This document shows, one piece after another, positions 36,894 through 41,053 of a stretch of DNA of 64,000 nucleotides. The stretch is taken from NCBI GenBank assembly GCA_030158485.1, contig JAOASS010000023.1:1-64000 (forward strand), given 5' to 3'. Every line of letters begins with the position of its first letter. Positions within the stretch are counted from its first letter, which is position 1. The notes beneath the pieces are model-generated. The model was not told the DNA's origin. It searched no databases and saw only the letters and a program-made list of their open reading frames with translations. The position numbers were made by a program, and so were the translations under genes. The stretch is from Pseudobdellovibrionaceae bacterium (GTDB lineage Bacteria; Bdellovibrionota; Bdellovibrionia; Bdellovibrionales; Bdellovibrionaceae).

Positions 36894-37018
36894 TTTTGTC
36901 TCAAACTTTTCTTACCAAAACTCCACCAACCAATAATGGCATACTGCTTGCTTTGTGAGCCTGTGACGACAAGTCAGTGTTTCTATGACACCACTTAGTT
37001 GAAATTCCGGGGGGAATA

Positions 37019-39076
37019 ATGAAAGCTCAGCTATCCTATATACTCATGTTCTTGTTTACAGTTGTTTTTTTTCAAGCAAGAGCCGAACAGCCAAGCGTCA
37101 CATTAACAAGAACCGCCACATCAGGCTCGAAGATGGAAACTCAGCTATCTCAGGATATTTATAAGTCCGTGCCGTACCAAGCCACTTATGAAGAACAAGA
37201 AGCTTATTCAGCGCAAGAAGATTACACCGTCGACATTCCATACCAAGATACTGAAACTTATTATGTCGATATTCCTTATCAGGAAACTGAAGACTATTAC
37301 GAACAAATACCTTACCAAGAAACTGAATCTTATCTTGATTATGAAACTTACTATGAAAATGAATACACGTGTCGCACTGTGACCGAATACGAACAGCAAT
37401 GCAGAACCGAAAGGCTCTGTTCGCGCCGTCCGGGCGATCAGACTTGCCAAATGGTTGAAGAATGCGGAACAAACGCGCTCGGAAAGCCCATTTGTAAAAC
37501 ACGAAAAGTGTGTGAAAATGGCCCCGATCGTGAAGATTGTGAAAATAAAAATGTTTGCACAAGTATTCCACGCAGCAAACAAGAATGCCGTAACGAACAA
37601 GTTGCCAAAACACGTCCTGTTACGAAGTACAGAACCGTTACACGATACCGCGACGAGAGACGAACGCGCACTGTTACAAAGTATCGAGAAGAGGCTCGAA
37701 CACGGACTGTCACTCGCTACAGGCAGGAAACAAGAACACGAACTGTGACCAAGTATCGTACCGTAACTAAATGTTGCGTCACTGAATACAAATCTGTTTT
37801 CGATTATACTTGGAGATTAGATTTGAAAATTATTTTACCTGCACAAGCCACTCTCTTGGGAAATGAATCCGAAACCTTTCATGTCGCGCTTTCAGGAACA
37901 CCAGAAAAACCTGATGTGATATTGACTCCGCTGAAAACAATTTACGGCTACAAAGTCGGCCCCAAACAGATAAATGCCAGCTCTGGACTCATTGAGCTCA
38001 TGTTAATTCCAAAATATAACCAACAATCATTAGGTGAAAAACTTTTAGAAGATGCTGAATTAACCGGAGACAACGAAGACAGTTTCAATGAGTTAATTAT
38101 AACAGATCGCGGTCTTGTCGCCAGAGTAACAACACTTTACAGATACAGAGTCTTAGATACACAAACAAAACAAACTGTTGCTGAAGGTGAGCTGTCTTCT
38201 GAAAATGCCATTGAAAACACAGTGACCGCCAAGCTGTCGCAAATTTTACCTTCAGATTCAGATTATATAGTTCAGATTTCGGCGACTCGAAGTGGAATCG
38301 TGCTTGAAAAAAGCTTCAGCTTTTCAATTTCAAAAGCTGTTCAGTTCAAACGCCTAAATCCAGACGATTATTCCGAAAAAACACTTAAAAATATAAAAGT
38401 TCTGGAACAAAAAGAGCAGGCGTTTCTTTTATTCAATGACGAAGGCGCACATCCCAAACTTGTAACACAATATAAAATCAGTATCGAAAACAAAAATGGG
38501 AATGAAGTTTTCTCAAAAGATCTGTTTGCTTCTGACATTCTTGATGCAAATAAAAAGGCTCAAGTCGCTTTAGATTCAAAAGTAATGAGCTTAGAAGAAG
38601 ATTTAACTATTCGTTTAACTGTTAGCAGAACTGGGAAACGAATCGAAAAACCCCTTTCTTTTCAAGTCCAAACCGAGAGAATCTATTTGCGACTTGAAGA
38701 TTTAAAAAATAAAAAGCGAGTGAGTAGCTTGAGCATTCAGGGTCGAAAAGAATTCGCCAAATTAGTTTTTCAAGATCAAATTAAGGATTCCACAAAAATT
38801 CAAACTGAATACAAACTCACAATCACTCGCAATGGCGGTTTCTTGGGGCTTCAGAAAAAAATAATGGCTCAAGTTACATTTAATCAGACGCAAATGAAAG
38901 GCGATTTGTTTTCTGAATACTTAACAAGTTTGGGTGTTTCAAAATCTGCTTTAAATGATCACCTGACTTCGAACTCAACTATTTACTTAGATTTAACAGT
39001 GAGTCGCAAAAACACAGCAGATAAAAAAGTAATTGCGATGTTTAGAAAAAGTGTCGAACTTAAAATCGAAAACTAA
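37019..39076 (+). CDS. secreted acidic/basic repeat protein, unknown
   Basis: A 685-aa protein with a signal peptide (cleavage likely after ARA, residue 22). Residues ~55-115 hold an acidic Tyr-rich array of about three 12-residue units, x-I-P-Y-Q-[DE]-T-E-x-Y-Y. A Cys-rich segment follows (about 117-195, more than ten Cys). Then a basic array of R-T-R-T-V-T-[KR]-Y-R units with a ~11-12-residue period (about 200-250). The C-terminal ~420 residues contain three similar ~110-residue modules, each ending near DLTVSR-x-x-x-x-x-K (ATRSGIVLEK, TVSRTGKRIEK, TVSRKNTADKK). GGGGGG ribosome site. No known family recognised; surface or cell-contact protein suspected. Confidence 0.8.
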   Translation: MKAQLSYILMFLFTVVFFQARAEQPSVTLTRTATSGSKMETQLSQDIYKSVPYQATYEEQEAYSAQEDYTVDIPYQDTETYYVDIPYQETEDYYEQIPYQETESYLDYETYYENEYTCRTVTEYEQQCRTERLCSRRPGDQTCQMVEECGTNALGKPICKTRKVCENGPDREDCENKNVCTSIPRSKQECRNEQVAKTRPVTKYRTVTRYRDERRTRTVTKYREEARTRTVTRYRQETRTRTVTKYRTVTKCCVTEYKSVFDYTWRLDLKIILPAQATLLGNESETFHVALSGTPEKPDVILTPLKTIYGYKVGPKQINASSGLIELMLIPKYNQQSLGEKLLEDAELTGDNEDSFNELIITDRGLVARVTTLYRYRVLDTQTKQTVAEGELSSENAIENTVTAKLSQILPSDSDYIVQISATRSGIVLEKSFSFSISKAVQFKRLNPDDYSEKTLKNIKVLEQKEQAFLLFNDEGAHPKLVTQYKISIENKNGNEVFSKDLFASDILDANKKAQVALDSKVMSLEEDLTIRLTVSRTGKRIEKPLSFQVQTERIYLRLEDLKNKKRVSSLSIQGRKEFAKLVFQDQIKDSTKIQTEYKLTITRNGGFLGLQKKIMAQVTFNQTQMKGDLFSEYLTSLGVSKSALNDHLTSNSTIYLDLTVSRKNTADKKVIAMFRKSVELKIEN

Positions 39077-39253: not shown

Positions 39254-41053
39254 GTGGGCATAATCTTATGCCGCCTTATCGGCGGTGTTCTTTTTATTTT
39301 CATTTTATCCGGCTGCGGAGCTGCCAGCGCGCCTAATAGCGCAAGCGCTAATTCAACTGCAGAATCTGGTTATTGCAGCACAAATTATTCAACAAGTAAT
39401 CCGATCACTGTCACAGCATTGGCCCAGTATTATTACAGAGCCACAAATGTCACAACGGGCTTAACAGGAAATCCTGTTGCGCGTGGAATTGCTTTTGCGG
39501 AAGTTATTGTGACTAATTCTGCAGGCGCTGTTGTTCAGTGCTCACAAACTGATGCTTCTGGTAACATCAATCTACAAATTGATAAAAATGCCGGCAGCTA
39601 TGCTATTCGTGTCAATTCACGTGCTTTTAATTCAAAATTAAAAGCCAGCGTCCTAACCGACCCTTCAAGCAATTCGGTTTATTCAATTTCCACTCCGTTT
39701 ACTTTAACGGGCGCAGAATCAGGGCCTAAAAATGCTGGAACTTTTTATGCTTATGCCAGAACTGCCCAGTCATCCAGCATGGAAGGTGCCGCATTTCATA
39801 TTCTTTACAATTTTTATTTAGCCAACGAATATCTGCGCACGCAAACTTCAAACCCTAGTTTTGTCGCGAACAAAGTTTCAGCTTATTGGAAGCAAGGATT
39901 TAATCCTGGGTCTTATGTTGGAGTTTCAAGCGGATTATCTTTCTATTTTCAAGGTGAAAGCGAATTGTATATTTTAGGTGGCATCAATGGAAATACAAAA
40001 ACTCAGGATACAGATCATTTTGATGATTCCGTTATCCTTCACGAATATGGTCATTTTTTAGAAGATGTTTATGGTAAATCAACATCCCCTGGCGGATCAC
40101 ATAACGGGAATTTTATTATTGACCCCAGATTAGCCTGGAGCGAAGGTTGGGCCAACTTTTTACAAGGCGCTATCATCACGCCCCAAGATGCAACTCGAGG
40201 GCAATACTACATCGACACAATAGGATATACAGGGGATACCAGCGAAACGGGCGAATCCAGCACAATCGCGATTAAGTTTGATCTGACACAATCTGGTAGC
40301 GTTGCTACTTTTGATCCCGTTTCAGTTTCCGGAGAAGGAACTTTTAGAGAAATTTCCATATCAAGACTTCTTTACAAAGTTATTACCACTACTTCTATCC
40401 CCTTTAGTTCTATGTGGACTGTCTTCACCGACACCGTGAATGGTATGCGGGCCCCCGCAAGTGTCTTTTCAAATGTCGGATTATTTAATCAATATCTAAA
40501 TGCCTTAGTTCCCGGTGGCCAAGCATCCGCTTGGGATGCGCTTTTAGGAAATGAAATGCAAAATAAAACGACTCGGGATTATGCCGATACTGTCACTTCT
40601 GCTGGAAGCTGTGCTCGATTCCCACGAGCTCTAACTCCGGTGATTGATGGAATCTACTCTTCGGCATCTGAGCCTCGATCTAATAAATTAAGATCAAATG
40701 ATTTTTATCAATTTTATTATAACGGGTCCGGTGGAACTTTAAGTCTGACCTATTCACAGGTCTCTGGGGTTAATATTGATCTTGATCTTTACCTTTATAA
40801 TACGGCTGCTAATTACCAAGAAGATTATGTGGAAGCCCTGGGGCAAACAACAGGAAGCGTCGTTTTAAAGTCTGATAGAGCCAATCCTGCTTTTGAAAGC
40901 GGAACTGAATCTTTTAGTTTATCCGGCGTACCCACTGGTTATTATATGATTAACGTAAAAGCCAACACTTATAATAAGAATAGTGCTCAAGTGAATGGAA
41001 CTGCTCAATATTCTCTTACTTTACAAGGATCATTTTTATGCCCAGCAAACTAA
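39254..41053 (+). CDS. zinc metallopeptidase lipoprotein
   Basis: A 599-aa lipoprotein (lipobox LSGC, Cys21) with a Ser/Ala-rich linker, a beta-sandwich segment (about 50-150; carboxypeptidase regulatory-like pattern GNPVARGIAFAEVIVTNSAGAVVQ...), a zincin catalytic core HEYGH (His263, Glu264, His267) with a downstream SEGWANF motif (Glu297) as third ligand, and a C-terminal beta domain (about 480-595; IDLDLYLYN, YYMINVKANTY) like bacterial pre-peptidase C-terminal domains. Likely on the cell surface or outer membrane; the substrate is unknown. GTG start; ribosome site weak. Overlaps the next gene by 16 bp. Confidence 0.82.
   Translation: MGIILCRLIGGVLFIFILSGCGAASAPNSASANSTAESGYCSTNYSTSNPITVTALAQYYYRATNVTTGLTGNPVARGIAFAEVIVTNSAGAVVQCSQTDASGNINLQIDKNAGSYAIRVNSRAFNSKLKASVLTDPSSNSVYSISTPFTLTGAESGPKNAGTFYAYARTAQSSSMEGAAFHILYNFYLANEYLRTQTSNPSFVANKVSAYWKQGFNPGSYVGVSSGLSFYFQGESELYILGGINGNTKTQDTDHFDDSVILHEYGHFLEDVYGKSTSPGGSHNGNFIIDPRLAWSEGWANFLQGAIITPQDATRGQYYIDTIGYTGDTSETGESSTIAIKFDLTQSGSVATFDPVSVSGEGTFREISISRLLYKVITTTSIPFSSMWTVFTDTVNGMRAPASVFSNVGLFNQYLNALVPGGQASAWDALLGNEMQNKTTRDYADTVTSAGSCARFPRALTPVIDGIYSSASEPRSNKLRSNDFYQFYYNGSGGTLSLTYSQVSGVNIDLDLYLYNTAANYQEDYVEALGQTTGSVVLKSDRANPAFESGTESFSLSGVPTGYYMINVKANTYNKNSAQVNGTAQYSLTLQGSFLCPAN

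Follow-up and report, generated by a model that had tools for sequence, protein, structure and literature searches.

Gene and protein layout

The window, a stretch of 64,000 nucleotides from a contig of a Pseudobdellovibrionaceae bacterium (JAOASS010000023.1), carries a gene for a large, probably secreted protein in which two arrays of opposite charge flank a Cys-rich segment and precede a chain of C-terminal beta domains. The features of the gene, all on the forward strand, are as follows.

37019-39076, +: whole gene with ATG start, encoding a 685-aa putative secreted beta-ribbon stalk protein; homologues of the same layout in 34/66 family genomes
37009-37015, +: G-rich, ribosome-binding-like stretch GGGGGGA ahead of the ATG, from a reading of the sequence
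37019-37084, +: predicted signal peptide MKAQLSYILMFLFTVVFFQARA, residues 1-22, no lipobox seen, from a reading of the translation
37163-37369, +: acidic array, residues 49-117 (69 aa, net -18), proposed ribbon strand 1; model strand 38-137
37370-37588, +: Cys segment, residues 118-190, exactly 10 Cys, mirror-spaced; model strands 141-151 and 157-167
37589-37771, +: basic array, residues 191-251 (61 aa, net +15), proposed ribbon strand 2; model strand 171-272
37772-37777, +: invariant CC pair, residues 252-253, at the proposed ribbon base, with no Cys opposite
37778-38011, +: first C-terminal beta domain (VFDHQ-like motif region), residues 254-331; pLDDT ~90 over most of it
38012-38350, +: repeat module M1, residues 332-444
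38351-38686, +: repeat module M2, residues 445-556, an extra copy missing in most relatives
38687-39073, +: repeat module M3, residues 557-685

The repeats described in the initial annotation were readily located. Its roughly three acidic units correspond to three good copies of IPYQ[DE]TE at residues 73, 85, and 97, with degenerate units flanking both sides, and its four or so basic units to RTRTVT[KR]YR at 215, 227, and 239 together with KTRPVTKYR at 197. The Cys-rich segment is also present, but the count given for it (more than ten) was too high, as 10 cysteines lie in the segment and two further ones in the CC pair. Because the basic units share 58–83% identity in amino acids compared with 58–72% in DNA, they look like old repeats under selection at the protein level rather than recent duplications. 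The best-conserved part of the protein after the CC pair is the first C-terminal beta domain, and the ORFs overlapping the gene on the opposite strand show no sign of being genes.

No model in Pfam or NCBIfam reaches its curated cut-off for this protein; EntB, PFF1_TM, IgA-binding BAC, GpJ FNIII-A, and DEX1 gave below-cut-off resemblances of repeat or fold and were set aside. A phmmer search of PDB sequences (E ≤ 1) found no match, and among the papers searched, none described the family and none contained the motif RTVTKYR.

Searching the genome contigs with the single sequence yielded no matches, and searching them with an alignment yielded 15 loci. Profile searches place the gene in 34 of the 66 genomes of the same family (12 of 20 genera), in a small number of genomes from the order's other families and, in more distant forms, elsewhere in the phylum. 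That homologues of the same layout recur across these 34 genomes confirms, at the level of sequence comparison, that the succession of arrays, cysteines and modules did not come together by chance. Besides the signal peptide, the two arrays, the mirror-spaced cysteines, and the beta modules, the family is marked by CC.T and an FDH-like motif, and the protein in the window has all of these. Named records among the matches are Bdellovibrio bacteriovorus strain kdesi and metagenome bins assigned to Bdellovibrio and Bdellovibrionales. A further homologue lies at 1783614-1785266 on the minus strand of genome G036, which we take to be B. bacteriovorus HD100, so that the family appears to be present in that strain; a literature search for this homologue under a guessed gene-number range found nothing. 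The profile search gave no match in several complete genomes of genus g6, nor in G001, a genome of the same genus.

On its downstream side, the gene is accompanied in the window by genes for a predicted lipoprotein with HEYGH, for a small protein, and for an ExoD protein. The first of these (39254-41053) is a GTG-start, lipoprotein-like ORF (SGCGAAS) with HEYGH, WSEGWA, and a weak carboxypeptidase-regulatory-like domain, and is likely a metallopeptidase. The association with a metallopeptidase operon that was initially suggested does not extend beyond close kin: this neighbor is kept only in the sister genome G002, and elsewhere the surroundings are unrelated, as in the HD100-like genomes, where metabolic genes and a sensor kinase adjoin the gene in a neighborhood shared within genus g6. 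Gene context justifies no functional inference.

Paired array lengths and mirrored cysteines

Array lengths were measured in unaligned sequences between fixed landmarks: for the acidic array, a conserved [YF][RK]-type motif and the first hinge cysteine, and for the basic array, the last hinge cysteine and the CC pair. L042 was excluded, its acidic array falling within an assembly gap (runs of N). Acidic/basic lengths were 33/25, 45/37, 57/49, or 69/61 in all 28 measurable homologues and in L060 (57/49), with the protein in the window at 69/61 and L047 at 33/25. In each of these 29 members, which have both arrays intact and come from about 12 genera, the acidic array exceeds the basic one by 8 residues, and lengths differ among members in steps of 12. 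On a tree built from the region after the CC pair with the arrays excluded, some branches of which are weak, about 11 state changes are needed for each array, and the states match at every tip. Several of these changes fall inside starred clades (L040 versus L103/L104; L109 versus L062, two units at once), so the paired lengths cannot descend from one inherited event. Because a conserved hinge separates the arrays, one simple duplication cannot lengthen both, and each step on one arm has been matched on the other; the natural reason is that the two arrays pair as strands of a single antiparallel ribbon.

Conservation of the arrays, which the initial annotation had linked to its reading of them, was found for one property and not for the other. 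Their charge is retained in most members, being weak in L062 (−3/+4), but the number of units varies, and it does so on both arms at once. For a fold-back arrangement, this simultaneous variation is stronger evidence than constancy.

The cysteines point the same way. Successive spacings are 10,6,9,6,[10],6,9,6,10 in the protein in the window (central spacing bracketed) and 10,6,7,6,[10],6,7,6,10 in HD100-type proteins, and in L041, with 18 cysteines, the series 8,6,8,6,8,6,9,6,[10] then runs back in perfect mirror order, for which the chance by reordering is 4.6e-5. Across 25 ten-Cys proteins, mirrored spacings are equal in 96 of 100 comparisons; the third spacing occurs as the pairs (9,9), (7,7), (10,10), (8,8), and (6,6), the exception, (7,8), being seen three times. 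Single-protein chance values among the ten-Cys proteins are modest (~0.003–0.05), and the real evidence is the coupled change of spacing across proteins. Comparison within the family shows that the two arms pair in antiparallel fashion and that the Cys segment makes up the distal portion of the ribbon. Cross-strand disulphides would then be predicted at 118-190, 128-180, 134-174, 143-165, and 149-159.

A more distant group from another family of the same phylum (L127-L140) shares the signal peptide, VPYQ...TRYR motifs, mirror-spaced cysteines along the whole ribbon, and a C-terminal beta domain. Spacings in L133 and L139 are 10,9,9,9,[10],9,9,9,10, and a 17-step series in L129, L134, and L135 is mirrored except for the outermost pair (11 versus 13). 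Unlike the family in the window, these proteins are without charged arrays and without the CC pair, and have up to 18 cysteines, placed about every 9 residues; they look like a form of the same ribbon that relies wholly on disulphides. Common descent of the two groups is likely, given a profile match to A4 (probability 99.8, compositionally biased) that spans the ribbon and extends into the first part of the C-terminal domain.

The central Cys spacing is 7–10 in most members. Inserts of 50–255 residues, where present, lie exactly between the two central cysteines and leave the mirror intact; the tip seems to be the freely varying part of the protein. Tip inserts in L043, L045, L116, L120, L101, and L047 open with a short stretch of partly hydrophobic character, after which come repeats rich in Pro, Gly, or Arg/Asp (e.g., RPDRPDRPG), a composition to be expected of an exposed end. 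The family may offer a case in which changes in length suffice to read the long-range fold of a protein, in the way that helices in RNA are recognized by paired changes of bases.

Predicted ribbon and its base

The AlphaFold2 model of the protein in the window, built from an alignment of 14 rows only, has strands at 38-137, 141-151, 157-167, and 171-272 (mean pLDDT 80.9), and their boundaries are symmetric: 137+171 = 141+167 = 151+157 = 308, which is also the sum for the outermost cysteine pair (118+190). L059, picked as a second, test member with short arrays and 18 cysteines, gives 110+198 = 114+194 = 121+187 = 129+179 = 136+172 = 141+167 = 151+157 = 308, again equal to 92+216. The pTM is 0.44–0.46 for the two models; pLDDT falls to 45–66 in mid-array blocks of the first (around residues 61–100 and 211–250), and confidence likewise drops to ~45–66 mid-ladder in L059, which would not be surprising for a thin ribbon modeled from a shallow alignment. 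The models are thus supporting, rather than decisive, for the ribbon.

Low mid-array confidence and the repetitive composition could also be taken to suggest charged tails of low complexity that are disordered and do not pair in any defined way; such tails would leave both the exact, equal length changes and the mirrored spacings unexplained, and we consider them highly improbable. The suggestion that the oppositely charged arrays fold back on each other is, by contrast, upheld by the lockstep lengths, the mirror-symmetric cysteines, and the two agreeing models. We conclude that the N-terminal third of the protein very probably forms one long, antiparallel, two-stranded beta-ribbon.

Alternatively, as the initial annotation suggested, one could envision strands that pair between molecules, by strand exchange or in a head-to-tail polymer, the acidic arm of each chain joining the basic arm of its neighbor to give a fibre or matrix. 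Mirror symmetry alone is also compatible with strand exchange between two molecules, since an antiparallel swapped dimer would need both this symmetry and equal arms, and the invariant CC pair, with no cysteine opposite, could join chains. However, the short turn implied by the central spacing in most members favors a tight, one-chain hairpin, and both models fold within one chain, although a single chain was also their input; on balance, pairing between molecules appears rather improbable. The CC pair may itself form a vicinal disulphide or, again, a link between chains.

The C-terminal part was initially described as three similar modules, and this holds better for neighbors than for the set. 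M1 and M2 are strongly alike (score 86, compared with a mean of 29 for shuffled sequences, none of 500 shuffles reaching 86) and M2 and M3 fairly so (0.002), but the sequence likeness of M1 and M3 is not significant (0.10). All three are ~112–129 aa long and have a similar strand order in the AlphaFold model. With Foldseek, the C-terminal modules match structures of tandem fibronectin type III (FnIII) domains and of the macroglobulin domains of complement C3 and C5, with an E value of 4.5e-7 and a probability of 1.00 for C3b and FnIII but a TM-score of 0.1–0.2 over the whole query. These matches suggest a fibronectin-III/macroglobulin-like beta-sandwich fold for the modeled modules. The likeness to fibronectin type III and to complement C3 and C5 would be one of fold; identity is ~10%, and no thioester or other C3 feature was seen. 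In a structural search of viral models, most hits were to phage tail and FnIII proteins, a result to be anticipated from these modules.

Possible roles of the ribbon stalk

In the arrangement that we propose, the protein would be exported through the inner membrane by its signal peptide, and its acidic strand would then lie against its basic strand, with the turn at about residues 151–157. The Cys segment would form a ladder of cross-strand disulphides along the far ribbon in an oxidising compartment, and the ribbon would stand on a short chain of fibronectin-III/macroglobulin-like modules, a stiff stalk of ~30 nm that would keep the tip away from the base, either on the predator surface or across the periplasm. 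Across the family, the ribbon comprises ~42–112 residue pairs, or ~14–37 nm at 0.33 nm per residue. This explanation as a whole, combining fold, modules, and a stalk or spacer role, strikes us as reasonably probable, and the role taken alone, that of a stiff stalk or spacer of tunable length, as evenly balanced between right and wrong. Among the possible roles, that of a rigid stalk, at the surface or in the periplasm, has the best support, adhesion being less probable.

Two interchangeable zippers, charge pairing and disulphides, could hold the strands together. In L041, a basic array of 25 residues accompanies a half-hinge of 62, and as short charged arrays can thus go with long Cys ladders, charge and disulphides look like alternatives. 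Exact salt-bridge contacts at the register given by the cysteines were considered and are not proposed here: the mean charge product there (offset 0) is −0.03, and some other registers score better (−0.16 at −2, −0.19 at +4, and −0.21 at +10). This non-optimal matching, together with the nearly uncharged arrays of L062, suggests that the charges are helpful rather than defining, and charge looks secondary to strand pairing.

A periplasmic spacer or strut between envelope layers, rather than a surface structure, would suit a signal peptide of the type I kind and a protein in which no outer-membrane anchor, autotransporter domain, or lipobox is seen, and 14–37 nm would cover the usual depth of the periplasm. 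However, its patchy presence (34/66 genomes) and a wide range of lengths, down to ~14 nm, are better suited to an accessory surface protein, and we think a periplasmic location unlikely.

Many Bdellovibrio-type bacteria prey on other bacteria, and one could also imagine an adhesin or prey-contact protein whose tip or basic face binds the lipopolysaccharide or another surface of the prey. The tip inserts differ strongly among species, the known species of Bdellovibrio are predators, and variable length and a variable tip are common among adhesins. However, we found no binding domain and no genetic link to known predation genes, and there are complete genomes of the same genus without a member; the lack of one in many complete genomes across the same bacterial family indicates that the protein is not essential to predatory life. 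In addition, the contact proteins known from HD100 are of other designs: the fibres with which it recognizes prey are described as trimeric and chimeric (PMC10769870), and Bd0875 of B. bacteriovorus is described as a MIDAS-family adhesin (PMC11003981). Both are likewise surface proteins of this predator group, and by these descriptions the family in the window has neither design. A direct role in adhesion is therefore doubtful, and we retain the rigid stalk as the better-supported reading.

The closest working analogue of the ribbon stalk is the bovine ultralong CDR H3, in which a two-stranded, antiparallel beta-ribbon stalk carries a disulphide-rich knob on a beta-sandwich base (PMC5994613, PMC11229553). 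The likeness is one of principle, a ribbon stalk holding a disulphide-rich part off a beta-sandwich base. Unlike the bovine loop, which reaches up to ~70 residues in all (PMC5994613), the strands here have ~40–110 residues each, vary in 12-residue steps, and carry charge and disulphides along the stalk. The two are presumably unrelated by descent. In Myxococcus, a bacterium that also acts on other cells, the surface receptor TraA has a Cys-rich stalk beneath a recognition head; the Cys-rich stalk would be the point of likeness.

The family may add a new class to the fibrous proteins of bacteria, in which one chain forms a two-stranded ribbon of ~14–37 nm that is zipped by charge or by disulphides, changes length by paired 12-residue indels in two arrays, and could serve as a surface antenna or strut of predators; we hold this proposal with confidence and doubt in equal parts. 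Should the ribbon be confirmed and prove to be without parallel outside the phylum, the architecture could fairly be called categorically new. It points to a simple, single-chain route to a stiff stalk of adjustable length and might provide a natural template for designed beta-ribbon rods. Since HD100, a predator amenable to genetics, apparently has a member of the family, one can test directly whether the protein acts in the envelope or in contact with prey. Two gene copies occur on different contigs in G009 (L047 and L046) and in G013 (L041 and L051), which shows that duplication has occurred in parts of the family.
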